Shown: positions 3,270 to 42,770 of the stretch, piece after piece | Layout: each line of letters begins with the position of its first letter | Position numbering within the stretch: the stretch's first letter is position 1 | From: a virus | IMG/VR virus record: IMGVR_UViG_3300017987_000156 | Span: 1 to 42,770 of that record | DNA length: 42,770 nt | Reading direction: 5' to 3' (one strand) | Translations under genes and position numbers: made by a program | The notes under the pieces: generated by a model | What the model was told of the DNA's origin: nothing | Databases searched by the model: none | Seen by the model: only the letters and a program-made list of their open reading frames with translations

Positions 3270-4295
3270 CTATTTCAGGAACCCAACGAGTTTGAGAGTA
3301 ATCGTAGCGTTGTTGTTGGCCCCGATCCGGATGATACCGCTGGAGTCGGTCATACACACCACGTAGCCGACCTTGGCGGAGGTGCCGAGATACGCGAACG
3401 AGGCACCTAGCGAGCTTCCGCCGTAGTGGTTGTCGAACGTGCCGCTGCCGTACCCCTTCGGTTTAGCTGCAAAGTACACGCCTTTCGATGCCTGGACCTC
3501 CAAATAGACCAGTGCCACGGCACTGCCGATTTGGCCCGAGAGGTCCAGATCGGTCCATGTATCAGGCGTCAGCGCCGCATTGTGGACCACCGTGCCGTTC
3601 GCCTGGCACCGCGCCGCATCACCGGCGTCGACGTAGGCTTTGACTGACTGCTGAGTCGGAACGTGGTCGGCGCTGTCCGACGCCATATCGTCTTCGTCGA
3701 CAATGACTGCGGCGACGGCGGCGTCGGCGTAGGTGTTCGCGTCAGTCACGGCGGCGTCGACGTAGGCCTTGACAGACTGCTGGCTGGGTACCTGCGTGTC
3801 GGAATCGGACGTCATATCGTCCTCGTCGAGCATTCCGGCCATCGGCTTTTCCGTCCCGTCGGCGCCCTTGAAGTACAGTTCGTTGCCCTTCATGTAGAGC
3901 CCGCGATCGGGCTCGTTGCCGGCCGTGTAGAGGGCCAGGGCCAGTTCGCCGGCGGGCGTCCACGTATTGGGACTGCCAATGGCTGTCAGGCTCTTGATGA
4001 CATTGTTTGTGGTATCGATCCAGATGCGCCCGAGGTCGGCGGACGTCAGCGCCGTCGAGCCGTCCGGGCGAGTTGTTGGCGCCGTGTCTTGGATCCAGGC
4101 TACTGCCGAGCCCTGCTTGTGCTCACCGCCAGCGGTCGAACCGGCGGGCGTGGTGTGCTCCTTCTGCAGGCGCAGCCGCAGGCCCATCCGCAGGTCGCGG
4201 ATCTCCAAGGCGCCGTTGCCGTGTGCGTCACTCAGCGCCGGAGCGTCTTCGTCCCAGGCGGTTCCGGTCGGTGGTGGTCCGATGTCGTTGGCCAT
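3270..4295 (-). CDS. Fibre-like virion protein with internal repeats
   Basis: This is a 341-residue protein. After an N-terminal region containing IWIDTTNN it carries two copies of a roughly 40-residue unit built around DEDDMxSDSxxxVPxQQSVKAYVDA, about residues 155-235. This unit occurs widely in phage tail fibres and appendages. A C-terminal beta-rich domain of about 100 residues follows (from ANGTVVHNAALTPDTW to TLKLVGFLK) and could be the receptor-contacting or trimerising part. It lies 9 bases after the adaptor gene and 1 base before the next gene. Role inferred: tail fibre or side appendage. Confidence 0.65.
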   Translation of the reverse strand: MANDIGPPPTGTAWDEDAPALSDAHGNGALEIRDLRMGLRLRLQKEHTTPAGSTAGGEHKQGSAVAWIQDTAPTTRPDGSTALTSADLGRIWIDTTNNVIKSLTAIGSPNTWTPAGELALALYTAGNEPDRGLYMKGNELYFKGADGTEKPMAGMLDEDDMTSDSDTQVPSQQSVKAYVDAAVTDANTYADAAVAAVIVDEDDMASDSADHVPTQQSVKAYVDAGDAARCQANGTVVHNAALTPDTWTDLDLSGQIGSAVALVYLEVQASKGVYFAAKPKGYGSGTFDNHYGGSSLGASFAYLGTSAKVGYVVCMTDSSGIIRIGANNNATITLKLVGFLK

Positions 4296-5654: not shown

Positions 5655-6923
5655 CTAGGCCACCGCCGCCTCCTGTGCGATGATCTTGCGGACCGTCAGG
5701 GCGCAGAACGGACAGACGCCCCACTGGGATTCATGGTGCAGGCCGAACATGTTCTTGCACGACGGACAGATCATCCGCACGTGGTCGGGGCCGGGCTCGG
5801 CGGTCGTGTCCTGACGCTGGTAACGCGGCTCGCGCGGCCATTGGTCGGGTATCTGGGGCTTCTTGCGACCCTTGCGCAGGACCCGAGAGATCGCCTCAGC
5901 CGCTCGGTGGCACGCGCTGCCGTCCAGGGGTCCGTAAAGATGGTCTTCCAGCCAAGTGAGTTTGTCGGTGTCGATATTGCTGCGGCCCCAAACCAGTCGG
6001 CCGAGCGCCTCAGACAGCTCACCGTAGTCGTTGACCTGGGGACACGCATTGGCGAGGATGGGATCGGGATTGCAGTTCGCGAAGTTCAGGGACGGCACGC
6101 CCAGCAAATGGGCCTCGATCGCCATGGTCGAGCCGGCATGGACCACGACATCGCTCGCGGCAATGGCCTGGCCGCTGGGATAGTCGTACGGCAGGATCTG
6201 GACGGTCTTGCCGAACGCCTCCTGGTACGCCCGGGTCGACTCGCCGGGCCGGACCTTCAGGGCGAAGTCGTACTTGTGGCTCTTGGTGGCGACGAGGTTC
6301 TTGATCGTCGCGATCCAGAGCGCCCTCAGTTCCGCATGCCGCGCGTACAACCGGCGCTGCAGTGGATTGCCTTCGGGCAGTCCGCATTCAGTGTAGTCCG
6401 GATGATCGTCGGCGGCACTGAAGGCGGTAGCGAACAGAACGCGCCGTTTGCCCGGCCGGGCCTGTCGCTCGTACTGCGTGCAGACGTCGAGGGTGAACGG
6501 GCCACAGGCAACCAGTTTCCTGGCCTCCATGCGCCCGCGTTCGGCCAGGATGTCGGCAAACTCCTGGCCCCAGACCAACTCCAGATCGATATGCTCGGCG
6601 TAGTCGTAATCACCTACGACGACACGCTGACGGTCCTCGTCCATCTGTTCGAGCGCCACCCGGCCGGCGCCCGCTTCCCCACGGCGAACGATCGTCACCA
6701 CGCCCCACTCCTTGATCTGGCGTGCGAAGTTCAGTTTGTGATCGGACCCGATCATCGGCAGGACCACCGCGTCGGGCTTCTCGACCGTCACCGCATCGGA
6801 CCCGGCCAAGACGAAGTTGCGGACCATGACCTCATGGCCCATATCGCGCAGACATTGGGCCAGTCGCTCGTCGACAGGCTTGTCCCGCTGCTCGGTCAGT
6901 GTCAGGATCAGGATCTTACTCAT
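5655..6923 (-). CDS. GT-B-like glycosyltransferase with C-terminal zinc ribbon
   Basis: This is a 422-residue protein resembling surface-carbohydrate biosynthesis proteins. The N-terminus is Rossmann-like (MSKILILTLTEQRDKPVDE). The C-terminal half has the nucleotide-sugar binding pattern of GT-B enzymes (IAASDVVVHAGSTMAIEAHL, then GVPSLNF). A separate zinc ribbon closes the protein (CPSCKNMF … CPFC, about residues 390-410). It overlaps the upstream methyltransferase gene by 8 bases, so the two are probably made together. Being inside the virion operon, it may glycosylate virion proteins, or host surface sugars or phage DNA late in infection; the acceptor cannot be told from sequence. The zinc ribbon fusion is unusual. 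Confidence 0.7.
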   Translation of the reverse strand: MSKILILTLTEQRDKPVDERLAQCLRDMGHEVMVRNFVLAGSDAVTVEKPDAVVLPMIGSDHKLNFARQIKEWGVVTIVRRGEAGAGRVALEQMDEDRQRVVVGDYDYAEHIDLELVWGQEFADILAERGRMEARKLVACGPFTLDVCTQYERQARPGKRRVLFATAFSAADDHPDYTECGLPEGNPLQRRLYARHAELRALWIATIKNLVATKSHKYDFALKVRPGESTRAYQEAFGKTVQILPYDYPSGQAIAASDVVVHAGSTMAIEAHLLGVPSLNFANCNPDPILANACPQVNDYGELSEALGRLVWGRSNIDTDKLTWLEDHLYGPLDGSACHRAAEAISRVLRKGRKKPQIPDQWPREPRYQRQDTTAEPGPDHVRMICPSCKNMFGLHHESQWGVCPFCALTVRKIIAQEAAVA

Positions 6924-18788: not shown

Positions 18789-18805
18789 GTTGACTAATAG
18801 TCAAC
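18789..18805. promoter_or_regulatory. Perfect 17-bp palindrome, operator candidate
   Basis: GTTGACTA-A-TAGTCAAC is a perfect inverted repeat with 8-bp half sites. It lies about 230 bases upstream of the terminase small gene and just past a terminator-like hairpin, where the virion operon promoter should be. It contains TTGACT, which could double as a -35 element on the minus strand, though no convincing -10 is seen at the right distance. It could bind a dimeric HTH regulator, such as one encoded in the window. Confidence 0.55.
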
Positions 18806-29926: not shown

Positions 29927-30406
29927 CTACTCCACGATGAACCAGTCGTCGCTGAGCATGTCGGCCTGGCTGGCGACCCAGCCCGGCTGCCACTGCTTCT
30001 TGGCGTTGTACAGAGCAAAGTAGGCCTGGCAGTCCAACGGGACATCGGGACCGATGAGCCTCGCTGTGCGGTCGTTGACCTTCCGACCGGGCTCTTGGGA
30101 GTTGAACGGAGGCAGGTGCATCGGCGACATGTAGACCGCGAACATGTCCGCTCCGTTCCACCCAGCCCGGGCGATCTTGTGTCCCTGCTTTGCCGCCTCG
30201 ATCGCGAAGCCGAACGGCATACCCGTCGTTGGGCGGTTATGCTTCTCGAACGTCTCCTTCGGGCACCAACTCTGATAGCCCTCCTCGTACTTCACGAGGT
30301 AGCCGTGATCTTCGACGTTGCCATCGATGGGACGCCCCAAGTACTCTTGGGCAGCAGCCAACGTCATGGGCTCGCCGTCTACAATCTTGACTCCGATGAA
30401 TCTCAT
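29927..30406 (-). CDS. Tad2-like (DUF2829) anti-defence protein with N-terminal extension
   Basis: This is a 159-residue protein. Residues from about 63 on match DUF2829: MPFGFAIEAAKQGHKIARAG, WNGADMFAVYMSP, then YFALYNAKKQWQPGWVASQA and DMLSDDWFIVE. DUF2829 is the family of Tad2, a phage protein that binds and sequesters Thoeris signalling nucleotides. Residues 1-60 form a separate small domain (GYLVKYEEGYQSWCPKETFE) often found before DUF2829 in phages. All core motifs are present, so ligand binding is plausible; which signal it binds is not known. It lies between unknown small genes, 58 bases after the preceding one. Confidence 0.8.
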   Translation of the reverse strand: MRFIGVKIVDGEPMTLAAAQEYLGRPIDGNVEDHGYLVKYEEGYQSWCPKETFEKHNRPTTGMPFGFAIEAAKQGHKIARAGWNGADMFAVYMSPMHLPPFNSQEPGRKVNDRTARLIGPDVPLDCQAYFALYNAKKQWQPGWVASQADMLSDDWFIVE

Positions 30407-32511: not shown

Positions 32512-33350
32512 TATGCTGTCTCCCTAGGAAACTCCCGAACCCGCAGGTCTCGGGGAAACTTCGTAATGTCCTTGACGACCTTGCCGTTGAGGTCGACTTG
32601 CTTGACGAAGACGGGGATGTTGGCCGCTTGGCCCTGCTGGACGATCGAGCGGAGCCAGTTGAGTTGGCATCGGCGACGCCCGGGCCCGGACTCACAGCCG
32701 ACGATAATCCACCCTAACAGGCCCCGAAGATCTTCGTGGTTCGGCGCCAATCCTAGATGGAACTTAAGATCGACGGGCCCGAGCAGCGGCTCGAACGAGG
32801 CGAAGCGCAACACCGGATCAATCTCATACAAGTCGCGAAGTCGCCTGTCGGCCCACTCCTGGTTCTCGCAGGTCGCGCCCATCCAGATGTTCGGGGCGTT
32901 GACGATCGGGCACGGCAGGCCGTCGTGCTCGTCCGCGTCGGCGATACAACTGCGGTAGTATTCCAGGGCCCGATCGGGGCGCTTGGTCAGGACCTGGAAG
33001 GTTGTGTTCGGATGGCTGATCATCTCGGAGTAGACCTCGTCGAGGAATTGAAAGGGCACCTTCTCGTGGAACAAGTCCCCCATCGAGCAAACGAAACACA
33101 TCCCCGATTTCGGGATGTTGTCCCAATGGCGCTGCGTGCAGACGGCCACTTCGCCATTCCATCGGCCGTCGTAATAGTTGATGACGTCCAGGTAATTGGG
33201 CTGCCCCATTCCCGCGAGTCGCTGCGCCATCCGCTCGGCGTAGCAGTTCTGGCAGCCGGGCGAGACCTTCGAACACCCAACAATCGGGTTCCACGTTTGG
33301 TTACTCCACTCTATCCTTGTCTTTGACACGTTGGGTCTCCTTGGTTTCAC
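32511..33350 (-). CDS. Phage Gp37/Gp68 family protein (DUF5131)
   Basis: This is a 279-residue protein with the family's defining start KTRIEWSNQTWNPIVGCSKV, SPGCQNCYAERMA, and later CFVCSMGDLFHEKVP, FQVLTKRPDRALEYY, WIIVGCESGPGRR and IPVFVKQVDL. The CxxxSPGCxxCYA cluster is reminiscent of radical-SAM Fe-S sites, but the activity of this widespread phage family is unknown. The ATG overlaps the upstream stop (ATGA). Located between the ASCH-like and cytosine methylase genes, so a link to nucleic-acid modification is possible. Confidence 0.8.
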   Translation of the reverse strand: MKPRRPNVSKTRIEWSNQTWNPIVGCSKVSPGCQNCYAERMAQRLAGMGQPNYLDVINYYDGRWNGEVAVCTQRHWDNIPKSGMCFVCSMGDLFHEKVPFQFLDEVYSEMISHPNTTFQVLTKRPDRALEYYRSCIADADEHDGLPCPIVNAPNIWMGATCENQEWADRRLRDLYEIDPVLRFASFEPLLGPVDLKFHLGLAPNHEDLRGLLGWIIVGCESGPGRRRCQLNWLRSIVQQGQAANIPVFVKQVDLNGKVVKDITKFPRDLRVREFPRETA

Positions 33351-34249
33351 CTCTCCGTTCGCTCGAACTCATAGACGGCGATCCAGGGATTGCCGACGAC
33401 GTACCACGGTTTGCCTCGATGCTCCCGGGTCTCACGAACCGACTCCCACGGGTAGGAGACAAAACACGCCTCTTTGGCCCAGGTGTACGGGTTGTGCGTG
33501 CTCGGCTTCGGTTTGGAATTCAGCGAGTCCCAGAGGTAGGCGAATATCTCGCGATTACCTGCGGTCCGCGTGTCGGCTACGGGCGTGCCGTATCGCTCGT
33601 ATATCTCTTCCCTTCGCTGGTTCCACGCATCATCATGCACCTTGCGAATAATGGCGTCCGTCTCGATGCCTTCGGCCTCAGCGTCCGCTTCGCTGATATC
33701 CTGCACGTGCTCGACGCGCACACCCTTGACCCGGCGACGGATGCGGGCCGCCCACTTGGGCATGTGGATCGCGGGTATGCACCGCTCAGTCAGGTTGTCG
33801 TCTGAATCAACATATTCCTGGATGCCATCTGTTGCGGGGTAGCCGACCGCGTACCCTTCGCCCGTGTTCCAATCCGCGTCCCAGTATCCTACGCCCTCTG
33901 CATACAAGGGCTGAATCTTCTCCCGCACCCACAATTCGTCCTCGTTTCGGTACGGCAGGCAGTACCCCAACTGCCCATCGGCCGAACACGGACCCCAGCC
34001 GATGACTACCGGCTCGCCCCGCCGCATCACGAACTCGCCGTTCACCATCTTGTGGATGTCGCCGAAGTGGTCCGGGCTCCACCATCCCGGCGGCTGGGGC
34101 TTGAGGTGGCACCTTCTCGTCTGCGTCTTGCGAAACTCCGTAGACCCACACCGCTCGCACGGGAACGGAACGGACATCTCGCCGCACTTGGCGCACGTGA
34201 TGGTCGCTCGGACCATGGGCGTGCTGAATAGGATCGGCTTCTCACTCAT
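33347..34249 (-). CDS. ASCH-like phage protein with inserted zinc ribbon
   Basis: The start is the ATG at 34249 (MSEKPILFSTPMVRATITCA) with GAGGAA upstream. The 300-residue protein follows a common phage family in which FSTPMVRAILxGRKTQTRR leads into an ASCH/PUA-like fold (KPQPPGWW, LWVREKIQP, VEHVQDISEADAEAEGI, FAYLWDSLN, YTWAKEACFVSYPWE). Here the hairpin between MVRATI and KTQTRR is replaced by CAKCGEMSVPFPCERC, a four-cysteine zinc ribbon. ASCH proteins bind RNA or modified nucleosides; function in phages is not established. Confidence 0.7.
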   Translation of the reverse strand: MSEKPILFSTPMVRATITCAKCGEMSVPFPCERCGSTEFRKTQTRRCHLKPQPPGWWSPDHFGDIHKMVNGEFVMRRGEPVVIGWGPCSADGQLGYCLPYRNEDELWVREKIQPLYAEGVGYWDADWNTGEGYAVGYPATDGIQEYVDSDDNLTERCIPAIHMPKWAARIRRRVKGVRVEHVQDISEADAEAEGIETDAIIRKVHDDAWNQRREEIYERYGTPVADTRTAGNREIFAYLWDSLNSKPKPSTHNPYTWAKEACFVSYPWESVRETREHRGKPWYVVGNPWIAVYEFERTER

Positions 34250-34508
34250 CGTGTTCCTCAATCATCTCAACCGCTGTCGCCAGGATCATGGCAGTCATCA
34301 TTCCGTTGCCGTGGGGTTCTCTCTCGGCTATCTCTTTCAGGCAGCGATGGGTAGCCTCCATCACTGTGAGATCGTGGCACTCCATCACCCCCTCGATGAC
34401 CTTGCGGGTCCTTGCCACTCGGGCCTTATACACTTCGCCCAGAAGCTGCTTCATCAGCTTCCGGCCCTCGTACATCTTGGCCGCGATCTCGATTGCCTGT
34501 TCACTCAT
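34242..34508 (-). CDS. Small helical protein
   Basis: The ATG at 34508 (MSEQAIEIAAKMYEGRKLMK) is 7 bases after AGGA; an ATG at 34514 is too close to it. The 88-residue product is helical (VIEGVMECHDLTVMEATHRC). It overlaps the next gene by 8 bases and follows a strong terminator, so it may begin a new transcript. Function unknown. Confidence 0.55.
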   Translation of the reverse strand: MSEQAIEIAAKMYEGRKLMKQLLGEVYKARVARTRKVIEGVMECHDLTVMEATHRCLKEIAEREPHGNGMMTAMILATAVEMIEEHDE

Positions 34509-34520
34509 ACTCATGTCCTG

Positions 34521-34547
34521 AAAACGGGGCCGGGCTGGCCGGCCCCG
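34521..34547 (-). terminator. Rho-independent terminator after the ACP operon
   Basis: On the minus strand, a 9-bp GC stem (CGGGGCCGG/CCGGCCCCG) with a 5-base loop is followed by TTTTC. It separates the Rrf2-ACP gene and its small partner from the genes that follow. Confidence 0.75.
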
Positions 34548-34574
34548 CGACCTGTGCTGTATTGCACCAAAACC

Positions 34575-34787
34575 TCAGTTGTCTTGTTGGGTGTGCTCTG
34601 CCCCGGGCGGCGCTCGGCATCTGGGTCGGGTGCCCGGTCCTGTCGTTTGCGAACAGTCGTTTGGGGGCCGTCTTGGCGCTCGCCAGTACTGCCCATGCCA
34701 GCCATCGGCATCACGGCACAGTAACAGCCCCAGGGCGATGAACGCCCGGTGCCAATTTGAAGCTGTCCCGGCGCGGCATCTACTCAT
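34575..34787 (-). CDS. Small ORF coupled to Rrf2-ACP gene
   Basis: The ATG at 34787 (MSRCRAGTASNWHRAFIALG) overlaps the ACP stop (ATGA). The 70-residue frame has a short hydrophobic stretch (AFIALGLLLC) and a Pro/Arg/Thr-rich tail. Coupling supports translation, but the tail's composition is only weakly protein-like. Just before the terminator at 34521. Confidence 0.4.
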   Translation of the reverse strand: MSRCRAGTASNWHRAFIALGLLLCRDADGWHGQYWRAPRRPPNDCSQTTGPGTRPRCRAPPGAEHTQQDN

Positions 34788-35419
34788 GACTTGATCCTCT
34801 CCACCAGATCGATCAGTTCGCCCAGCGTCTTGACCTTCTCGGCGTCTTGGTCCTGGATGGCGATATCGAACGCCTCTTCGCACTTCATCAGGACCTCCAC
34901 GGCGTCGAGTGAGTCGGCGCGGAAGGCGTCGTACAGATCGTCATTGCGGTCAAGCTCCTCCAGGTCCGCGCCGGTGGTGTCGAATTGGTCAGCGAGGATC
35001 TCGAGTATCTTATCTTCAGTCGTCACGGCGTCACCTCCTGGGCCGAGAAGGCTGTCGAGTAGGGTCAGATCAACGATGCACCAGCCCAAGATCTCCCGGG
35101 TGGTTTTGACTAGCGCCTCCTTGAGTACAGCGACCTCGTTCGAGTCGCCCGGGGTCAACGGAAACACGTCCCCGTCTACCGAGCGAAGCACATCGATGAC
35201 CTGGATCTGATCCGCCGGCCGGGCCAGCAGGTAGCCGCCCTTCGAACCGCGGATCGCACGAACCAGACCGGCCTTCTTCAAGTCGGACACGATGACATCG
35301 GCGTACTTGGCGCTGATGCCCGCCCCTTCGGCCAGCTTGGCCAGGGAAAGGTGTCCCTGGGCGCCGTGCAGCTTCACCAGTAGATCGATCGCGTGGGTTA
35401 CTCGGGTGGGTAGTTGCAT
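34784..35419 (-). CDS. Rrf2-type HTH regulator fused to acyl carrier protein
   Basis: This is a 211-residue protein with two domains in one frame. Residues 1 to about 125 match Rrf2 regulators: LPTRVTHAIDLLVKLHGAQG, the winged helix LSLAKLAEGAGISAKYADVI, VRAIRGSKGGYLLARPADQI and a dimer helix. The Cys triad that holds Fe-S clusters in IscR-type members is absent (only Cys114 near the usual region). Residues 132-211 are a full acyl carrier protein: KILEILADQFDTT, FRADSLDAVEVLMKCEEAFD, then IQDQDAEKVKTLGELIDLVE, with Ser170 as the phosphopantetheine site. ACP carries acyl groups in lipid or related synthesis. The fusion suggests a regulator sensing or carrying acyl groups, or a bicistronic arrangement with an internal start (see 35024-35039). 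Confidence 0.9.
   Translation of the reverse strand: MQLPTRVTHAIDLLVKLHGAQGHLSLAKLAEGAGISAKYADVIVSDLKKAGLVRAIRGSKGGYLLARPADQIQVIDVLRSVDGDVFPLTPGDSNEVAVLKEALVKTTREILGWCIVDLTLLDSLLGPGGDAVTTEDKILEILADQFDTTGADLEELDRNDDLYDAFRADSLDAVEVLMKCEEAFDIAIQDQDAEKVKTLGELIDLVERIKS
35024..35039 (-). promoter_or_regulatory. Internal ribosome site and GTG start for free ACP
   Basis: Inside the Rrf2-ACP gene, AGGAGG (35039-35034, minus strand) lies 7 bases before an in-frame GTG at 35026-35024. Translation from it would give an 80-residue stand-alone ACP (VTTEDKILEILADQFDTTGA…). This is one of the strongest Shine-Dalgarno sites in the region and falls exactly at the domain boundary. Confidence 0.65.
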
Positions 35420-35445
35420 GATCTATCTCCTTCCTGAGTGAGGAC

Positions 35446-36327
35446 CTAAGAGAACAGTTCGTCCCGGTGCTCTGACGTGTCGTGATTGGTCAAGAGAACT
35501 TCGATCGCTTTCGTCTTGTTCTCGCCCCGCTTGTTCTGATGGGACATCGCCTTGGCGACCGTCTTGTAGTGCTTGGTCCAGGTCGGGTACAGTTCGTCCA
35601 GTCTGTCGTGTTGGTAGTAGCTCAATACAACCCGAGTCTCTTTGAACCGGCCCAGCAGCTCCGCCAGTCGTTCGTGGTCCTCGTCAGTGAAGTCGTGCAG
35701 GTACTTGGCGCTCTTCTCGAAGTAGGGCGGATCGCAGTAGATGGCCGTCCCGGCCTTGTCCTCGATCTTCTCGCCCACCTCGAAGACATCGCGGCGCAGG
35801 ACCGTGACGTTCAGCAGGCGTTGATGCCACCATGGGATACTCTCGATAACGCCCTTCCACCGCTTGGCCGCGTGGCCGCCGTTGGACGTGTATCGAACAC
35901 AGAAGCCGGAGTTGTAACAGGCTGTGCCAGCCGCACCGTTGCGGCCCTGCCAGGAGCACAGGAGGTAGTCGTACGCCCGGTCAAGGTCGGGTCCGTCCAA
36001 CTCGACCTGGCGGGCCTCCACGAGTCGGTTTCTGGCCTCTTGATGCAACTGATCGGACATCAGCGTCCGTGCCGTCCTGGCGTAGAGTTTCAAGGCCAGT
36101 TCTTCGACCTGCAGGACCTTCGCGAGGTTGGTCACGTCGGCGTGCAGATCTACGACGGTTTCCATCACGCACGGCTTCTTCGCAAACGTCACAGCCATTG
36201 AACCGCAAAACAGCTCCCAATACACTCGGTGCAGGCCCAGCAACGTGATCGCCACCGGGGCCAGGTTGCGCTTGCTCCCCAACCAGGGCGCCGCCGCTTT
36301 GTTCTTCATCCCGGAATCCGTTCCCAT
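35446..36327 (-). CDS. dam: D12-class DNA N6-adenine methyltransferase
   Basis: The start is taken at the ATG of 36327 (MGTDSGMKNKAAAPWLGSKR); a second ATG is 18 bases further. The 293-residue protein has the D12 motifs: PWLGSKRNLAPVAI (SAM site), VYWELFCGSMAVTFAK, and the catalytic AIYCDPPYFEKSAKYLHDFT, followed by VVLSYY. It differs in family from the dam near dnaB, so the phage carries two unrelated adenine methylases. Likely role: protection from restriction. It starts about 75 bases after the preceding gene, past an inverted repeat. Confidence 0.9.
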   Translation of the reverse strand: MGTDSGMKNKAAAPWLGSKRNLAPVAITLLGLHRVYWELFCGSMAVTFAKKPCVMETVVDLHADVTNLAKVLQVEELALKLYARTARTLMSDQLHQEARNRLVEARQVELDGPDLDRAYDYLLCSWQGRNGAAGTACYNSGFCVRYTSNGGHAAKRWKGVIESIPWWHQRLLNVTVLRRDVFEVGEKIEDKAGTAIYCDPPYFEKSAKYLHDFTDEDHERLAELLGRFKETRVVLSYYQHDRLDELYPTWTKHYKTVAKAMSHQNKRGENKTKAIEVLLTNHDTSEHRDELFS

Positions 36328-36353
36328 TGCTCGTCCTGAACTCCTTTCTCCCA

Positions 36354-36381
36354 GGGGCGGCCGCCCTGTCACGGCCGCCCC
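36354..36381. repeat. Perfect 9-bp inverted repeat upstream of D12 methylase
   Basis: GGGGCGGCC and GGCCGCCCC flank a 10-base loop. No T-tract follows on either strand, so it is more likely an attenuator, RNA-stability hairpin or protein site than a classical terminator. Confidence 0.55.
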
Positions 36382-36400
36382 GGAAATAGGGTGATGGGGG

Positions 36401-37585
36401 TTAGGCCGCCGATTGAGCTGGTGTCAGTTCGCCAAGGCAGGAACACTTGCCGCTCTCAGGCCAGTGGTCGTACGGTTTGCTGCAACGACGGCAGATGTAT
36501 GCCGTAGGAGATTCCTTAGCCAACGCAGCGTCCAGGGCGGCGTCGTCGTCCATCGGCCCACCGACCTGGCTGGTCGCATCGGCCAATTGGCCATGCACTT
36601 CCTTGGCCTTCTTGAGTGTCACATGCACGGCCTTGTCGGACAATTGGGCTATTGACTTGCCGGGTATAACCCTCTGGTCGCGGCCAGGGAACGTGCTGAG
36701 CTTGATGCAGATCCCGTCCGGCGTATCCCCGCTGTCGGATCGCACCAGTGCAAAGGTCTTGTAGTCCTCCGATGCCGCTGTCATGCCCGCGTTGGCGATA
36801 TCGACGCAGAGACGCATCAGCTCTTCCCTTGCGTCGCCCGGCTGTCGGGGTGCGGTCTGGGCCTGCGTCCCGTTCTGGTCCGACCGGCGCCTGGGCTGTT
36901 GGACTGTCGGCTGTGCCCCGTTCCCGTTGGTGGTGCTGCGGGTCTTGTCGGTAGAGGCCAGATCATCGTCGTCGATGTCCTGGGTAAAGATGTCACTGGC
37001 AGCCGTCGCCGTCAGGGTTGCATCGACGTTCGCCCTCTTCTTGGCCATCTTGAGCACGGTATTGTAGTAGTCGGCCGGGTTGTCATGTTCGATGCGCTCG
37101 GAGATCGTCCACGCGTTGTTCTTCTTGCGGGGATGAAACTGCGGACCACCCAATATCTTCGGGTCTCGCGTTTCCCAATAGTCCTGGGGCACCGGCCGGC
37201 CGGTGTCTTCGCTGCGGAACCGATACTTGGCTTCCATCGTCGAACAACTGCCCACGCCCGAGCCGACGAACGCACCTGTGTTGATGTTGCACAGATCGCA
37301 CGTGACGATGTACTCGCGGTGCCCACCTTCGAAGTCCAGTCGTTCGATCGCAAAGCGCGGGGCCAGTCGAAACGTAAACGCCAACTTCTCAGCCCCCGGC
37401 TTGAGTAGACTGGGTTTGTCGCCGCAGCCGGGGATCTGGCCGTAGTGTTCACCGGCCTTCATGACATGCTTCATGACCTGCTGAACCTTTGCCACCTGGC
37501 TCAGTACCGTCTTTACACTCATCTCGTCGGATTGCTGCTGAATAGCGCTCGATTCTTGCGTTTGCGGTGCTAGTTCCGTGTTCAT
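36401..37585 (-). CDS. Conserved phage protein, probable recombination-associated
   Basis: This is a 394-residue protein of a family common in phages and prophages. It has VMKHVMKAGEHYGQIPGCGD, KPSLLKPGAEKLAFTFRLAP, REYIVTCDLCNINTGAFVGS, GVGSCSTMEAKYRFR, YYNTVLKMAKKRANVDATLT and ATAASDIFTQD. A Gln/Pro/Ser linker is followed by a charged C-terminal domain and a final CRRCSKPYDHW…CSC zinc ribbon. The family is usually encoded beside single-strand annealing or exonuclease genes; here a coiled-coil protein and a RecB-like nuclease are adjacent. Role in recombination or DNA handling is inferred only from context. Confidence 0.65.
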   Translation of the reverse strand: MNTELAPQTQESSAIQQQSDEMSVKTVLSQVAKVQQVMKHVMKAGEHYGQIPGCGDKPSLLKPGAEKLAFTFRLAPRFAIERLDFEGGHREYIVTCDLCNINTGAFVGSGVGSCSTMEAKYRFRSEDTGRPVPQDYWETRDPKILGGPQFHPRKKNNAWTISERIEHDNPADYYNTVLKMAKKRANVDATLTATAASDIFTQDIDDDDLASTDKTRSTTNGNGAQPTVQQPRRRSDQNGTQAQTAPRQPGDAREELMRLCVDIANAGMTAASEDYKTFALVRSDSGDTPDGICIKLSTFPGRDQRVIPGKSIAQLSDKAVHVTLKKAKEVHGQLADATSQVGGPMDDDAALDAALAKESPTAYICRRCSKPYDHWPESGKCSCLGELTPAQSAA

Positions 37586-38295
37586 ATCGCTCTCCTTGTG
37601 GCCGTATTGACGGCCACGCTCGTCTCAGTGACGGCCTTGCAGCCGGGGATATTGAAGGTCTGACGCATGGCCCGCGCCATGCCATTGAGGGCCACCATGT
37701 TCGGCTGCACCAGTTCAGTTGAAGCCTGTCCGTTGGCCACGGCCCGACATAGGGCCTTGATGTCCACGACCTCCGCCTTCCATCGCTTCTGCGTAGAGAC
37801 GCCAGTGGCCTTCGCATAGACGGGCTTGGCGACGATCGCTGGTCGCACGACAGGAGTTGTGAGGATCTCGTCGACCGTCTCTTCGGTCGCTCCGTTCTCT
37901 TCAGCCTCCTGAGCCAGGGCCAGTCGAGCTTCTTCGTCCGCCTTGTGTTGGGCCTCCTCCAGTTGCCTCTGTTTCTCCTGCTGTAGCCGCTCCTGTTCGC
38001 GGTCCCAGTTGCCGATAGCAGTCTTGATGATCTGCTCGGCCTGTGCGATCGGGTCGAGCAGCTTCTTCTCGGCCGCCACGGCAGCCTTGTGGGCCTTGTG
38101 CGCGGCGTCTTTGATCGGCTTGTGATGGGCCTGGATCTCCTTGCGCAGACCCACGATGTCGCCCAGGAACGACGCGGCTGTGTTGTACGTCTCCTGGTCG
38201 GTGATTGTGATAGCCTTGGCCCGATCCGGCCACGCCAGGGCGACTTGTTCCATCTGTTCGACCTCCGTTGTCTCTACGGGTGCGTTAGCTTCCAT
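37582..38295 (-). CDS. Coiled-coil protein of the recombination block
   Basis: This is a 237-residue protein. The middle, about residues 50-150, is a long Lys/Glu/Gln/Ala coiled coil (GLRKEIQAHHKPIKDAAHKA … REQERLQQEKQRQLEEAQ). A C-terminal globular part follows (VDIKALCRAVANGQASTELV, then LNGMARAMRQTFNIPGCKAV). It closely resembles phage proteins found beside RecT/exonuclease systems, and is coupled by ATGA to the next gene. Likely a structural partner in DNA recombination; mechanism unknown. Confidence 0.65.
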   Translation of the reverse strand: MEANAPVETTEVEQMEQVALAWPDRAKAITITDQETYNTAASFLGDIVGLRKEIQAHHKPIKDAAHKAHKAAVAAEKKLLDPIAQAEQIIKTAIGNWDREQERLQQEKQRQLEEAQHKADEEARLALAQEAEENGATEETVDEILTTPVVRPAIVAKPVYAKATGVSTQKRWKAEVVDIKALCRAVANGQASTELVQPNMVALNGMARAMRQTFNIPGCKAVTETSVAVNTATRRAI

Positions 38296-38836
38296 AATGC
38301 GTCCTCCACTCAGTAACGGTTAATGCGGCGTTGAAGACGCCCAGGTCGCGCGCGAACTCCTCACGGGGAAACTCCCGGACCTGATACGTCGCGTCCTTCT
38401 TCAGGTACAACCCGAACCGGCGATACGAGTAGGGATCGGGCAACATGTTGACGTATGCAGCCGTCTGGATCGCGTGCCACGGGAAATGACAGCCGCTCTT
38501 GATGTCCCACAACTGCCTGGGCCGGGCCTGCAGAATGCGGTCGGGCGTGCCCCGATAGCGGCCCAGCGGGTCCTGCTGCGGGCACTCGATCCACTCCCAC
38601 TGAACGGCCCCGTGATCAGCCTGAAACTTGCAGTACGCCTCAAGGTAGGGCGCAATGACCGGATCGACCGACGCCTCATCCAGATCGCCCTCGTCGTGGT
38701 AGTGACAGGCGGCATGCACGGCCGTGCCCCGATCGCGTACGGCCTGCGTGAACCACCGCGTGTCGACAATCCCCGCATCCTTGAGGACCTCGGTGACGCG
38801 CGGCAGGTTGGTGTTGACGGTTCCTTCGGGGGTCAT
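38285..38836 (-). CDS. PD-(D/E)XK nuclease (RecB/Cas4-like)
   Basis: This is a 183-residue protein with the exonuclease core. It has a metal-site region (RYRGTPDRILQARPRQLWDI-KSG) giving G-x-x-D … D-I-K, and the following AIQTAAYVNML motif where RecB-type enzymes have Q-x-x-x-Y. Upstream is RGTAVHAACHYHDEGDLDE, matching the G-x-x-x-H helix. This combination marks Cas4/RecB-like phage nucleases that prepare ends for annealing. It overlaps the next gene by 11 bases and precedes the annealing-type genes, suggesting a recombination module. Confidence 0.8.
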   Translation of the reverse strand: MTPEGTVNTNLPRVTEVLKDAGIVDTRWFTQAVRDRGTAVHAACHYHDEGDLDEASVDPVIAPYLEAYCKFQADHGAVQWEWIECPQQDPLGRYRGTPDRILQARPRQLWDIKSGCHFPWHAIQTAAYVNMLPDPYSYRRFGLYLKKDATYQVREFPREEFARDLGVFNAALTVTEWRTHYGS

Positions 38837-38922
38837 TCGGCCACCTCCTGGCCGTAGCCGTCGAACATCGTTGGCATCCAGAGGGCCTTGAATCCGGCCC
38901 AGATTGCGGTTAGGAGTCGCAT
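38833..38922 (-). CDS. Tiny ORF, 29 aa, strong ribosome site
   Basis: A 29-codon frame starts at the ATG of 38922 with a perfect GGAGG 7 bases upstream. The product MRLLTAIWAGFKALWMPTMF… is hydrophobic and ends in an ATGA overlap with the nuclease start. Probably a small membrane-associated peptide or a translational leader for the nuclease. Confidence 0.5.
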   Translation of the reverse strand: MRLLTAIWAGFKALWMPTMFDGYGQEVAE

Positions 38923-39101
38923 GGGGTTACCTCCAAGGGCGTATTCGCCGCGCCCAGGGCGGGCTCACGTGGTCCCTCTTCAAGTTCCTCCTGCCCGCCA
39001 CACCTGACCAGTTGCGCCCGGAGAATGGCCTCGCCCTCGCACAGCAGGCAGTGTTGCACCATCGTTCCGCCGTTGATAACGTTGGCGATGTGCTGGTACA
39101 T
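38910..39101 (-). CDS. Small Cys-containing protein
   Basis: The ATG at 39101 (MYQHIANVINGGTMVQHCLL) forms a TGATG junction with the upstream stop. The 63-residue product has C-x2-C…C (HCLLCEGEAILRAQLVRCGG), possibly a zinc site. It overlaps the following tiny ORF by 13 bases. Function unknown. Confidence 0.5.
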   Translation of the reverse strand: MYQHIANVINGGTMVQHCLLCEGEAILRAQLVRCGGQEELEEGPREPALGAANTPLEVTPCDS

Positions 39102-39415
39102 CAGGAGGCCTCCTCTAAGGCCGCGTCGGATAACTTGGCCTCTACGGCCTCGCAGTATCCCGCCTGCCGGGTCCGCCCCGTCAACTCCACGACCCCCGCC
39201 TCCACCAGGGCCTCGGGAATGCCCTCGTTCTCTGACCAGCCCTTGAGCCAGACGCACCCTTCGTCGGCTGGAATCTCGAGATTGACCGTCGCCACGTACA
39301 GCCGTTCGCTTGTCGTGGGGTCGTCGCCGATGATCGCGGCCCCGCCGTCCTGATAGCAGGGAAAGCTCAGCGCAACCCGGCCCTTGGTGTACTTCGTAGT
39401 CACGTCGATCAGCAT
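39101..39415 (-). CDS. Small conserved-type phage protein
   Basis: This is a 104-residue protein (MLIDVTTKYTKGRVALSFPC) with the segment LYVATVNLEIPADEGCVWLK-GWSENEGI and VELTGRTRQAGYCEAVE. That pattern is common among small phage and mobile-element proteins of unknown function. The start overlaps the upstream stop by one base and its own stop is in a TGATG junction. Confidence 0.6.
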   Translation of the reverse strand: MLIDVTTKYTKGRVALSFPCYQDGGAAIIGDDPTTSERLYVATVNLEIPADEGCVWLKGWSENEGIPEALVEAGVVELTGRTRQAGYCEAVEAKLSDAALEEAS

Positions 39416-39822
39416 CAGCCCACCTTTCTCTGCTCTGTTACGTCGGGGAGTAGGCGGTCCACTGTGACGTCAAGGACGCAGTCCCTCGCTCCGTCGTCCT
39501 GCTGTGGCTCGACCGGGAAGGCGTCCAGGATCGCCCGGTACTTGCGCCGCCATCGTTCGCGGGCGACCTCGGGGTCTCGTTTCCGGTACGCCGCCTCGCC
39601 CATCATCGCGTCACGGACTATCATCGCCCGGACTTCATAACAGAGGTAGCAGAACTCCTGCTTGTTCGCAGGCACGAGACTCGGGTAGATCCTCTCCACA
39701 TGCTCGTCGATAGGGTCCCGGCGCGTGGCAATGCAGGATTTGTGAACTCTTTTTTGACAGAACTCGCAGGCCGCTGTCTCCTGGCCTTCAATAATGTCCT
39801 CGTTGCATGTTGGGCATGTCAT
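39415..39822 (-). CDS. Treble-clef/PHD-like zinc-finger protein
   Basis: This is a 135-residue protein beginning MTCPTCNEDIIEGQETAACE. The Cys/His order (CPTC … CEFCQKRVHKSC … CYLC) is like a RING/PHD or double zinc-ribbon domain, able to bind two zinc ions. A basic region (KRDPEVARERWRRKYR) follows. A GAGGTG ribosome site precedes the ATG at 39822. It is the first gene after the tRNA-Ser-like gene and hairpins, so it may head the early operon. Confidence 0.65.
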   Translation of the reverse strand: MTCPTCNEDIIEGQETAACEFCQKRVHKSCIATRRDPIDEHVERIYPSLVPANKQEFCYLCYEVRAMIVRDAMMGEAAYRKRDPEVARERWRRKYRAILDAFPVEPQQDDGARDCVLDVTVDRLLPDVTEQRKVG

Positions 39823-39841
39823 ATTTCACCTCGCTCAATCA

Positions 39842-39857
39842 GACCGGTCGCCCGGTC
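39842..39857. promoter_or_regulatory. Perfect 6-bp inverted repeat upstream of early operon
   Basis: GACCGG-TCGC-CCGGTC lies about 20-35 bases before the start of the first early gene, just outside its ribosome site. It could be an operator or an RNA hairpin controlling the operon. Confidence 0.5.
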
Positions 39858-39882
39858 GGTTACATCAGAGGGAACACGAGGT

Positions 39883-39926
39883 CGCTCAAATGGGGTGACT
39901 GGCGTACGACCAGCCACCCCTGAGCG
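39883..39926. repeat. Long imperfect hairpin between tRNA-Ser and early genes
   Basis: CGCTCA … TGAGCG encloses a longer stem (GGGGTGACTGG with CCAGCCACCCC, one mismatch) around a short loop. It gives a stable stem of about 17 bp with a small internal loop. There is no T-tract. It probably ends or processes the tRNA transcript, or shapes the early leader. Confidence 0.6.
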
Positions 39927-39972
39927 AAGGTGTAAAGGTGCGATTCGGATCTCCGTAGCACAGATACGCGGG

Positions 39973-40086
39973 GAGCCCCAACGGGATTTGAACCCGGCAA
40001 CGGATCTGGCCCACCAGACCAGGACGGTTGCCTACGTGACCTCCAGCTTTCCAGACTGGCGCTCTACCTTGCTGAGCTATGGGGCA
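39973..40086 (-). tRNA. tRNA-Ser(GGA)-like gene with enlarged variable region
   Basis: Read on the minus strand: acceptor GCCCCA pairs with TGGGGC (first pair T·T), D-arm TAGCTCAGCAAGGTAGAGC, anticodon stem CCAGT/GCTGG with loop CTGGAAA, giving anticodon GGA (Ser), and T-loop TTCAAAT with a CGGG/CCCG stem. The variable region is about 45 nt, far longer than usual, and itself contains two paired segments (GGCAAC/GTTGCC and TCTGG/CCAGA). CCA is not encoded. Likely a phage tRNA-Ser, though the insertion could impair function. Confidence 0.65.
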
Positions 40087-40142
40087 ATCCCTACAACCTT
40101 TCGGAGGCCGTGTTCGGTACACCGTAATCGCGGTTGGTGACA

Positions 40143-40399
40143 AAGGTCGGTTCCCATCCATGGAGGGAGATGTTCCCCGACCTTCGGAGGAGTTGATCAA
40201 GATAAAGGGGAGTCGGCTGTTAAAAAGGGCCTATCGACCGTAAACGTCCATTGGACGATTTACAGTGGTTGGTTTCCGAACTCCCCTGAACGACCAGGAA
40301 TAACCGTACAGGCGACTGCCTACCAACGGGATATCACCGCCTTCCGGCAGTCGCCTTGTACAGCCCCTCTCCGGCCCGACGTCTAGGCCTACGGAGAGG
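40143..40399. ncRNA. Series of strong hairpins, possible structured RNA or attachment region
   Basis: Between the integrase stop and the tRNA gene lie four consecutive inverted repeats. A, 40143-40150 with 40177-40184 (AAGGTCGG/CCGACCTT), contains an inner TCCC/GGGA. B, 40207-40216 with 40276-40286 (GGGGAGTCGG/CCGAACTCCCC), encloses GTAAACGTCC/GGACGATTTAC. C, 40306-40320 with 40346-40361, has about 15 bp with one bulge. D, 40366-40373 with 40392-40399 (CCTCTCCG/CGGAGAGG), contains an inner GGCC/GGCC. No convincing reading frame is present. This density is not explained by termination, since no T-tracts follow; it may be a non-coding RNA or the integrase's attachment site. Confidence 0.5.
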
Positions 40400-40410
40400 C
40401 AATCGCACAT

Positions 40411-41925
40411 TTAGAGTGTGCCGTTACGGGAATGACGTCGCCCCGCACATATCTCCAGAATGGCCGCCCGATCCTCGTCAGAGAGGTCCGGCCATGCTTC
40501 GATCAGGGAGCCCAGTTCGGGGTGATTTGCAGTGATTTGCAGCACCTTGCGTGCATCGACTGCGCCGCATTTTGCGCCGCCACCCTCAGCAATCAGCGTT
40601 TTGGATAGCGCCAGTGGGGGGTGTTCGTGAGCCTCCGCCTCCATTAGAGTATCCTGCAAATCGCTGCAATCCGCTGTATCTGGCTGCAAATCGCCCTTTT
40701 CGACCCCGCCAGACGATGTCACGTGCGCCACATTGCGCCGCTTTGCGTGACTTTGCTGCGCCGGATTCTGCGCCGCGTGCGTGACATGCGCCGCATTTTG
40801 CGCCGCCTGTTCCAGTCGGTGGTTGTCTCGAATAGCCTTCGCGAAGGCCTCGTCGGGGACCTGGAGATAATGGCGTTCTGCGATCCGCGCCGTGTTACCG
40901 ATCCAGGTGGTCGCGACATGTAATGGGTACTCCGCGGCCAGCTCGGTCTCCCGGCTGGCTCGGAGGTTTTGAAACAGCCGCGGCCAGGGCTGGAGGCCCG
41001 CCCTCTTGAGGATTCGCAGCAGCTGCGTCCTGAGGTTTGCGTTGGCGTCACGATACCGGGTAATCACATACGGTATCCCCGGCTCCGCCAGCTCAAACAC
41101 TTCTTCGAGATACGGCCGTACCTCTGGGAAGATCGGAATCACTCTCGATTCCCGCCCTTCGTGGTGCTCGGTCTTCGGGCTCCTGACCGTCATCCGGGCT
41201 GAGTCCCAGGCAATATCATCCCAGGTTAACTCCAGTGGCTCGCTGGGCGTCCTGAGCCCGCCGTAACGGGCCAGGGCGAACAGGAGCCGCCACTGGGCGT
41301 CCGGGCAGTGCTCCAGGACCTTCTCGGCCTCTTCGCGGGCGACGAAGTACTGGCGTGCCTTGTTGGCGACCGATTTGGAGTCCAGATCAGCAAAGGGGTT
41401 CTCCGGTATGAGCTTCCGCTTGACCGCGACATTAAAGAACGCCTTGGCGTTGGCCGTCCGCTTGCCGACCGTCGCAGGGCTGAGCTTGGATTCGACCAGA
41501 TAGGCCCGCCAGGCCTGGGCGTCTCGTTCGCTGATACTCCGTAAGGGCTTGTCGGCCCCGAAGAACTCTCGGAGCGTCCTGCGGGTGTGAGAATAGACGA
41601 GCTGGCTGTTCGGCTTCAGATCCGTGCGGCTCTTGAGGTACTCCTCAATGAAGGCGTCCAGTGTCGCATTGGTCCGTTTCTCCACCAGTCCCACGGCCGC
41701 CAACTTATCGTAGAGCCCACCGTCAAGACCTTTGAGCCATTGAAGCGTGTCCGCCTCAATCACGCCCATCGCGCCATTGGCCGCCAGGACAAGCTGCTCG
41801 ACCCTGAACTTGATCGATTCGGCCTGTCGTCGGCTGCACTTGCCCAGGCGGAGGGTCTTACGCTTACCCTCCGCTCGGAACTGAATCCTCTTCCTGCCGT
41901 TGGTGTCGTTCACGAGACTCGCCAT
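40411..41925 (-). CDS. int: Tyrosine-type site-specific integrase
   Basis: The start is taken at the ATG of 41925 (MASLVNDTNGRKRIQFRAEG) because it matches planctomycete integrases; a longer frame starts at 41949. The 504-residue protein has an N-terminal arm-type DNA-binding part (KRKTLRLGKCSRRQAE), a core-binding domain (TNATLDAFIEEYLKSRTDLK) and the catalytic domain. Catalytic residues: Arg225 (YGGLRTPSE), Lys251 (RSPKTEH), Arg322 (FQNLRASRETEL) and Tyr353 (AERHYLQV). The usual HxxR is NLR and the second His is Asn, as is common in that family. A Gln/Ala/His-rich and then acidic C-terminal extension of about 140 residues is present. It integrates and, with the excisionase, excises the phage. 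Confidence 0.9.
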   Translation of the reverse strand: MASLVNDTNGRKRIQFRAEGKRKTLRLGKCSRRQAESIKFRVEQLVLAANGAMGVIEADTLQWLKGLDGGLYDKLAAVGLVEKRTNATLDAFIEEYLKSRTDLKPNSQLVYSHTRRTLREFFGADKPLRSISERDAQAWRAYLVESKLSPATVGKRTANAKAFFNVAVKRKLIPENPFADLDSKSVANKARQYFVAREEAEKVLEHCPDAQWRLLFALARYGGLRTPSEPLELTWDDIAWDSARMTVRSPKTEHHEGRESRVIPIFPEVRPYLEEVFELAEPGIPYVITRYRDANANLRTQLLRILKRAGLQPWPRLFQNLRASRETELAAEYPLHVATTWIGNTARIAERHYLQVPDEAFAKAIRDNHRLEQAAQNAAHVTHAAQNPAQQSHAKRRNVAHVTSSGGVEKGDLQPDTADCSDLQDTLMEAEAHEHPPLALSKTLIAEGGGAKCGAVDARKVLQITANHPELGSLIEAWPDLSDEDRAAILEICAGRRHSRNGTL

Positions 41926-42145
41926 CCATCGCCCCTTTCCATGCTGCATCCATGAGCCACTTGCGCAAAGAGTCTACCGGATACATCAGGATACCGCCAA
42001 CCTTCAAATGTGGCACGATCCCCTGAGTGGTCCAATCAGACAGCTTGCGCTCGCTGATACTCAAGGCCTTCGCCGCTTCCGGGGCCCGCAATGACAAACA
42101 TGGCACAGAGGGCCCGGAAGGCTTCTTTGGCTCTATACCAATCAT
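41864..42145 (-). CDS. xis: MerR/excisionase-like HTH protein
   Basis: This is a 93-residue protein starting with a GGAGG site at the ATG of 42145. The core LSLRAPEAAKALSISERKLS, DWTTQGIVPHLKVGGILMYP, VDSLRKWLMDAA is the winged-HTH of excisionases/MerR-like DNA-binding proteins. The stop lies 62 bases inside the integrase gene, so the two are co-transcribed. It likely controls integration direction and may repress. Confidence 0.75.
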   Translation of the reverse strand: MIGIEPKKPSGPSVPCLSLRAPEAAKALSISERKLSDWTTQGIVPHLKVGGILMYPVDSLRKWLMDAAWKGAMDGESRERHQRQEEDSVPSGG

Positions 42146-42162
42146 AGATAACCTCCGTTCAA

Positions 42163-42185
42163 GCCCGGCGCGGTGTGCGCCGGGC
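42163..42185. terminator. Strong hairpin between tRNA-like sequence and excisionase
   Basis: GCCCGGCGC pairs perfectly with GCGCCGGGC around a 5-base loop. On the plus strand it is followed by AGTCTTTC and on the minus strand by TTGAAC, so it can terminate weakly in either direction; a role in ending the tRNA-like transcript fits best. Confidence 0.5.
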
Positions 42186-42242
42186 AGTCTTTCACCATTT
42201 CCTCGTGTTCACTCTGCAGTTGTCAAAGATCACTGTTTCAAA

Positions 42243-42388
42243 GGGGATGGTGGGATTTGCACCCACACGTGCCACACAGTCGCGGGAGATAATTCCCACG
42301 GCGCTCGTGCCTCAATTGCGTGCCCGCCACCCTGTGTGATGCACAGCCGAGCTTGACCGCGTCTAACTAGTATTTCCGCCACATCCCC
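42243..42388 (-). tRNA. tRNA-like sequence next to integrase, long insertion
   Basis: On the minus strand the ends form a perfect 7-bp acceptor (GGGGATG/CATCCCC) and a 5-bp T-stem (GTGGG/CCCAC) with loop TGCAAAT. T-loop position 55 is G instead of the usual T. A D-arm like those of Leu tRNAs follows the acceptor (TGGCGG…TTAGACGC). The span is 146 nt, about 60 more than a class II tRNA, and I cannot assign the anticodon; extra paired segments include CTGTG/CACAG and CGTGGGA/TCTCCCGCG. It may be a degenerate or intron-bearing tRNA, or an attachment-site remnant: its 3' end faces the excisionase and integrase. Confidence 0.5.
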
Positions 42389-42429
42389 ATGTTGTCTGGC
42401 CCGCTGGGGGCCTAAAGAGCTATACCCGC

Positions 42430-42770
42430 CTATGCGGGGTTTCCTACGTAGCACTGAACCTTCTTGCTGCTGCGGTCGATTAGGACAGCTCGCTTCGATT
42501 TGAGGATTGCATCCGACAGACTGTTGTATGTCGTCACGGTCCCGTTGCCCCAGACCTTGTTCACGGTCCCGTTGTCCCGGACCTCGTTCACGGTCCCGTT
42601 GCCCCAGACCTCGTTCACGGTCCCGTTGCCCCAGACCTCGTTCACGGTCCCGTTGTCCCGGACCCTGTTCACGGTCCCGTTGTCCCGGACCTCGTTCACG
42701 GTCCCGTTGTCCCGGACCTCGTTCACGGTCCCGTTGCCCCAGACCTCGTTCACGGTCCCGTTGCCCCAGA
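42430..42770 (-). CDS. Tandem-repeat protein, N-terminus beyond the window
   Basis: The frame is open from the right edge to the stop at 42430. It consists of 9-residue repeats in two versions (NGTVNEVWG and NGTVNEVRD). A 35-residue unique C-terminus follows, beginning TTYNSLSDAILKSKRAVLID. Such short Gly/Asn/Val repeats suggest a beta-solenoid or fibre. The gene may belong to the host side of the integration site or be a phage gene; the start lies outside the window. Confidence 0.65.
   Translation of the reverse strand, partial: WGNGTVNEVWGNGTVNEVRDNGTVNEVRDNGTVNRVRDNGTVNEVWGNGTVNEVWGNGTVNEVRDNGTVNKVWGNGTVTTYNSLSDAILKSKRAVLIDRSSKKVQCYVGNPA
42537..42770. repeat. 27-bp tandem repeats
   Basis: At least 8.5 copies of a 27-bp unit based on TTCACGGTCCCGTTG[T/C]CCC (plus strand) fill the end of the window. 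Copies differ mainly at the two positions that give TGGGGC or CGGGAC codons in the minus-strand gene. The array continues beyond the edge. Confidence 0.9.

Follow-up and report, generated by a model that had tools for sequence, protein, structure and literature searches.

An unusual phage gene that joins an Rrf2-type regulator and an acyl carrier protein in one reading frame

Does a single phage reading frame that encodes both a winged-helix regulator and an acyl carrier protein (ACP) specify one protein with a joint task, or do two neighbouring genes simply run into each other? The question arises from a 42,770-nt stretch of viral DNA (IMG/VR virus record IMGVR_UViG_3300017987_000156, positions 1 to 42,770; hereafter the window), in which an ORF beginning with the ATG at 35419 continues for 211 codons with zero internal stops (Table 1). 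The gene is real and unusual, fusing two kinds of protein that phages are already known to encode. We consider it probable, if not strongly so, that it consists of two complete neighbouring phage genes without an intervening stop, and that it gives rise to dual products, an Rrf2-ACP protein and a free ACP.

Table 1. Features of the Rrf2-ACP locus, in positions of the window
Feature	Position	Strand	Remarks
Fused ORF, Rrf2 winged-helix regulator plus acyl carrier protein	34784..35419	minus	211 aa
Rrf2 module, residues 1-126	35042..35419	minus	without Cys triad; C-terminus ...TLLDSLLG
ACP module, 80 aa from GTG132 plus stop	34784..35026	minus	Ser170 = phosphopantetheine site
Shine-Dalgarno region of the Rrf2-ACP start	35420..35439	minus	GGAAGGAGATAGATC-ATG, -8.8 kcal/mol
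Internal Shine-Dalgarno AGGAGGTGA, spacer CGCC and in-frame GTG (codon 132)	35024..35039	minus	likely free-ACP start
DNA methyltransferase, same-strand upstream neighbour	35446..36372	minus	PHROG 56; DPPY motif in sequence

A sequence-only reading of the window had claimed that a complete Rrf2 regulator and a complete ACP share this frame, and domain searches bore this out: residues 5-94 match Pfam PF02082 (Rrf2; E 1e-19, 71.5 bits versus a cut-off of 30) and residues 137-206 match PF00550 (PP-binding; E 5.7e-9, 36.6 bits versus a cut-off of 20.8), both within the uninterrupted ORF. The fused protein also matched PHROG 24072 (Rrf2-like, E 2e-10), and the Rrf2 half narrowly missed NCBIfam TIGR00738 (70.0 versus 73.3) and scored below the cut-off of the IscR equivalog (56.7 versus 207.55, NCBIfam). 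With the Rrf2 family it shares the winged-helix fold, the GGYxLAR wing motif, the long helix and the TL-xx-L C-terminal helix, but unlike family members, including CymR and PHROG 24072, it runs on in frame into an ACP. IscR-type members use a Cys triad for sensing, and the family also includes CymR and others that lack the Fe-S triad. As had been noted from the sequence, the phage protein has no such triad: the stretch from its wing to the long helix contains no Cys, and C114 is the only one in its Rrf2 part. The structure prediction proposed in the same reading yielded an AF2 model of the Rrf2 module (alignment of four sequences) with a mean pLDDT of 72.8, ~72-91 in the wHTH core and only 42-57 in the C-terminal helices, which Foldseek matched to the folds of IscR (4cic) and CymR (2y75) at E ~5e-7.

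The ACP half matched PHROG 5934 (phage ACP) at residues 133-209 (E 5.3e-15), is 26-49% identical to viral ACPs and stays below the cut-offs of the housekeeping AcpP equivalogs in NCBIfam (TIGR00517, 47.5 versus 70.45; NF002148, 51.8 versus 71). The modifiable Ser170 that had been pointed out is indeed present within ADSLD (D169-S170-L171). Across the 22 viral ACPs aligned with it, the residues D169 and S170 never vary, and helix II (DSLDAVEVLMKCEEAFDI) is conserved as well. In a model of the fused protein the ACP part was confident (pLDDT 88-98), with helix II beginning at S170, and confidence was low for the Rrf2 part and for how the domains are placed relative to each other, so that no contact between Rrf2 and ACP can be claimed. 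The ADSLD serine and the four-helix ACP are common to this protein and to phage ACPs (PHROG 5934, with Cronobacter phage GAP32 and Vibrio phage helene 12B3; Erythrobacter phage R6L), but whereas known phage ACPs are nearly all stand-alone genes, this one lies in frame behind a regulator. Erythrobacter phage R6L carries an ACP, and published phage ACPs have no assigned role (PMC5463345); some prophages encode acpP together with fabF and fabG (PMC8224337).

The two modules are joined by a linker of ~5 residues, and the coding strand at the joint reads CTT CTC GGC CCA GGA GGT GAC GCC GTG ACG ACT GAA. Within it, AGGAGGTGA at 35039-35031, a near-perfect match to the anti-Shine-Dalgarno (anti-SD), lies 4 nt upstream of the in-frame GTG132 at 35026-35024, which coincides with the usual start point of ACPs in the ACP comparison. 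The anti-SD pairing at GTG132 (-11.6 kcal/mol) ranks second among 439 internal ATG, GTG or TTG codons of 25 phage ORFs, is stronger than that at the Rrf2 start and, set against the starts of the 25 ORFs compared, ties with the best and exceeds the other 24. The 64-kb genome contains AGGAGGTGA three times, every copy on the coding strand. Of the two copies outside the joint, one marks the beginning of a 94-aa ORF (7828) and one (21715) precedes an ATG with a mere four-codon frame. An SD-like stretch of -10.0 also accompanies the ATG at codon 178, inside the ACP, where it is almost surely accidental; since 7 of the 439 internal start-like codons reach -10, SD strength by itself is no proof of use. 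The RNA at the joint showed no special structure (folding z 1.0), and its predicted fold has part of the internal SD base-paired. Judged by these sequence features, GTG132 is the likely start of a free ACP. Because both modules are complete and the ACP retains its own start signals, the simplest reading of the locus is a pair of adjacent genes whose intervening stop has been lost, with the start of the second gene retained. Elsewhere in viruses, Rrf2s and, with few exceptions, ACPs are encoded by genes of their own; two phage Rrf2s (L084 and L046) stop at TLASLL and KLSDLML, respectively, where the fused protein reads on LLG-PGGDA-V.

A base-level error or a one-base polymorphism at the joint, with genes that are in fact separate and an Rrf2 stop that overlaps the ACP start or its SD, would account for the same frame. 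Such an error is conceivable because both alternative frames stop at the joint, at the TGA within AGGAGGTGA and at the TGA overlapping the GTG (GTGA), so that a single-base indel would produce the usual phage gene overlap; moreover, other viral Rrf2s terminate here or nearby. However, these out-of-frame stops are weak evidence, because a TGA in the SD and a GTGA are inherent to SD and start, the longest homopolymer at the joint does not exceed 3, and the GC3 values of the Rrf2 and ACP halves are alike and normal for the phage. In addition, the same sequence occurs in a second contig (UViG_3300029267_001596), which contains the identical fused ORF and the entire window. We therefore regard an error or polymorphism as very unlikely, and the concern, voiced in the sequence-only reading, that a frameshift or misassembly had joined two genes is eased by the agreement of two contigs in frame and kept alive by the stops in both other frames. 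The second contig is 64,283 bases long and its ends overlap by 44 bases; the phage genome, of ~64.2 kb, thus seems to be circular or terminally redundant. The two contigs differ at 11 positions, all inside a 27-bp terminal tandem repeat (window 42534-42770, where the contig ends; 8.8 copies), and are identical elsewhere; as the differences are confined to the repeat, the contigs may stem from the same population or share reads, and the second contig is support for the sequence, though not independent evolutionary evidence.

On the favoured reading of two neighbouring genes, a Cys-triad-free Rrf2 regulator and a type II ACP would be accessory genes arranged head to tail in one frame. As no in-frame stop separates them, translation begun at the Rrf2 ATG should always yield the fusion, and free ACP would come in addition. 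The 211-aa Rrf2-ACP made from the ATG at 35419 would be a dimeric DNA-binding regulator with one ACP at each C-terminus, and ribosomes initiating internally at AGGAGGTGA-CGCC-GTG (35039-35024) would produce a free ACP of 80 aa. AcpS gave no match among the phage's own genes; the host AcpS would charge Ser170 in the fusion and in the free ACP alike. The Rrf2 part would then do the regulating, the carrying or binding would fall to the ACP, most of it free, and the ACP tail on Rrf2 would be tolerated or just mildly used.

From the genes recognised in it (terminase, portal, major head protein, DnaB, RusA, exonuclease-like, integrase), this is a tailed phage and probably a temperate one. Rrf2-ACP belongs to a minus-strand run of integrase, exonuclease-like genes, an unknown gene (PHROG 10048) and the DNA methyltransferase, which continues past Rrf2-ACP with unknown genes, DUF5131 and a second DNA methyltransferase. 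Because the stop of the upstream methyltransferase lies 26 bp before Rrf2-ACP, the two are probably co-transcribed; sigma-70 promoter-like sites were absent from window 33000-42700. Elsewhere on the minus strand, a Tad2-like domain (Thoeris anti-defence family) was found at 29927-30406 (PF11195, E 4.8e-21), and an Rfam tRNA match of 41.9 bits that ARAGORN missed lies at 39973-40086, near the integrase and possibly att-related, with a 44-nt insertion at the place of the variable arm and an anticodon loop that suggests GGA (Ser). Beyond the window, the same phage encodes a 3033-aa ORF (L005:9211-18312, minus strand) in which a weak methyltransferase-like stretch alone was recognised. A palindrome near 18789 had been put forward as a target of the regulator. 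This perfect dyad (TTGACTA-A-TAGTCAA, 18790-18804) lies at the 5' end of the ORF listed for the terminase small subunit. Since it occurs just once in the window, there is no reason to link it with Rrf2-ACP, and we dropped it as a candidate operator.

How widespread is this joining? A search among phages for the combined architecture, again proposed from the sequence, detected the fusion in no other record searched: no tblastn match covered at least 80% of the fused protein in the phage and plasmid collections, the matches being Rrf2-only or ACP-only. In IMG/VR, a scan for viral ACPs found 51 loci including that of the present phage, with none of the others fused to Rrf2, and a scan for viral Rrf2s found 24, the present phage and 23 others, most of which lack the Cys triad and span 99-181 residues from stop to stop (L106 and L107 resemble ordinary IscR); a scan with a different Rrf2 alignment gave one weak extra locus. 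The earlier statement that this is no standard phage regulator therefore stands for the fusion, seen nowhere else searched, but not for its Rrf2 half, since Rrf2 in 23 other viral contigs, and PHROG 24072, make a phage Rrf2 not unprecedented. An ACP in the same record was absent from the 23 other Rrf2 loci except for one phage (L046/G411), whose ACP and Rrf2 genes are separate and 2.3 kb apart (UViG_3300037587_000428: ACP 4001-4228, Cys-free Rrf2 6536-6877; by eye, the genes between and beside them resemble a lysis cassette). Because the L046 Rrf2 belonged to the query alignment of the Rrf2 scan, its return is circular and was not counted as enrichment, and co-occurrence in one further phage record is an anecdote without a usable base rate.

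Rrf2 matches in the phage collection came for the most part from faecal scaffolds without annotation or from contigs that include host genes, such as an iscR-iscS-iscU operon. In a search of 396 genomes of one non-planctomycete phylum, 155 genomes had matches at E 1e-9 or better and none of the matches listed covered both domains; no connection of the phage to planctomycetes came to light; an exact-peptide scan of the genome collection gave one weak match, to Rrf2 alone. Searches for close relatives of the phage, whether with TerL, with the adjacent methyltransferase or with the entire fused protein, returned the second contig alone, and the nine distant loci matched by the protein at 36401-37585 were all without Rrf2 or ACP. 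The open-access literature yielded nothing relevant on an Rrf2-ACP fusion. By these homology searches, the fusion appears rare within the collections searched, at limited sensitivity. The searches made found no diverged relatives of the fused gene, and hence neither selection acting on the joint nor the loss of a stop can be dated.

The sequence-only reading had further suggested that the acyl-carrying domain may be the sensor, that is, that an ACP arm in its apo, holo or acylated form alters DNA binding by the Rrf2 dimer and so couples phage transcription to the fatty-acid state of the host. Consistent with this proposal, a complete DNA-binding module and a complete ACP share one chain, from which the Cys triad, the sensing element of IscR-type members, is missing. 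ACP assistance to a DNA-binding protein also has a precedent in Tn7, where ACP and L29 work with TnsD, a target-site DNA-binding protein, in target selection (PMC11406308); there, however, a separate, unfused host ACP serves another DNA-binding protein. Likewise, a phage polypeptide of 463 aa (L043:3653-5041, UViG_3300046457_000084) combines an N-terminal HTH with a mid-chain ACP (PF00550, 6.5e-14) and a C-terminal part like the RIIB lysis inhibitor (PHROG 3803, 5e-54), but its HTH is of another type and its ACP is embedded in a RIIB-like protein, as an inserted domain, rather than joined tail-on. A further viral ORF of 413 aa (L039:9-1247, UViG_3300031251_000102) has its ACP set within a protein in which nothing else was recognised. 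By contrast, triad-free viral Rrf2s are common without any ACP, so that a missing triad is no sign of sensing by an ACP; the linker is short, the arrangement is conserved in no relative, and no lipid-metabolism genes were noticed among the scanned phage ORFs. The proposal also overlooks the strong internal start, which would also yield unfused ACP and which makes neighbours with a lost stop plus a free ACP the simpler reading. We therefore judge an ACP sensor unlikely, and a combined scheme, in which the acylation state of the ACP arm sets DNA binding by the regulator and free ACP competes for charging or partners, quite unlikely.

Bacterial ACP is known to partner with SpoT, MukB and IscS. 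The ACP arm might accordingly dock onto a host ACP partner (SpoT or a fatty-acid enzyme) and localise the regulator or the partner, with no lipid sensing involved. The conserved helix II and the existence of protein partners of bacterial ACP, TnsD among them (PMC11406308), fit such docking, but the objections raised against an ACP sensor apply equally, and it is the account to which we give the least credence.

What is new, then, is the in-frame joining of Rrf2 and ACP, both halves being already known as phage protein types. Phage ACPs and small phage Rrf2s both recur without a known role, and this locus joins the two puzzles; as it resides in a phage without a recognisable AcpS, it offers a testable case for the role of a phage ACP and for its possible cooperation with a regulator. 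Should the ACP arm prove to be a sensor, it would constitute a new phage route to read host lipid metabolism, and DNA binding set by acylation would provide a direct input of lipid state into a phage decision.
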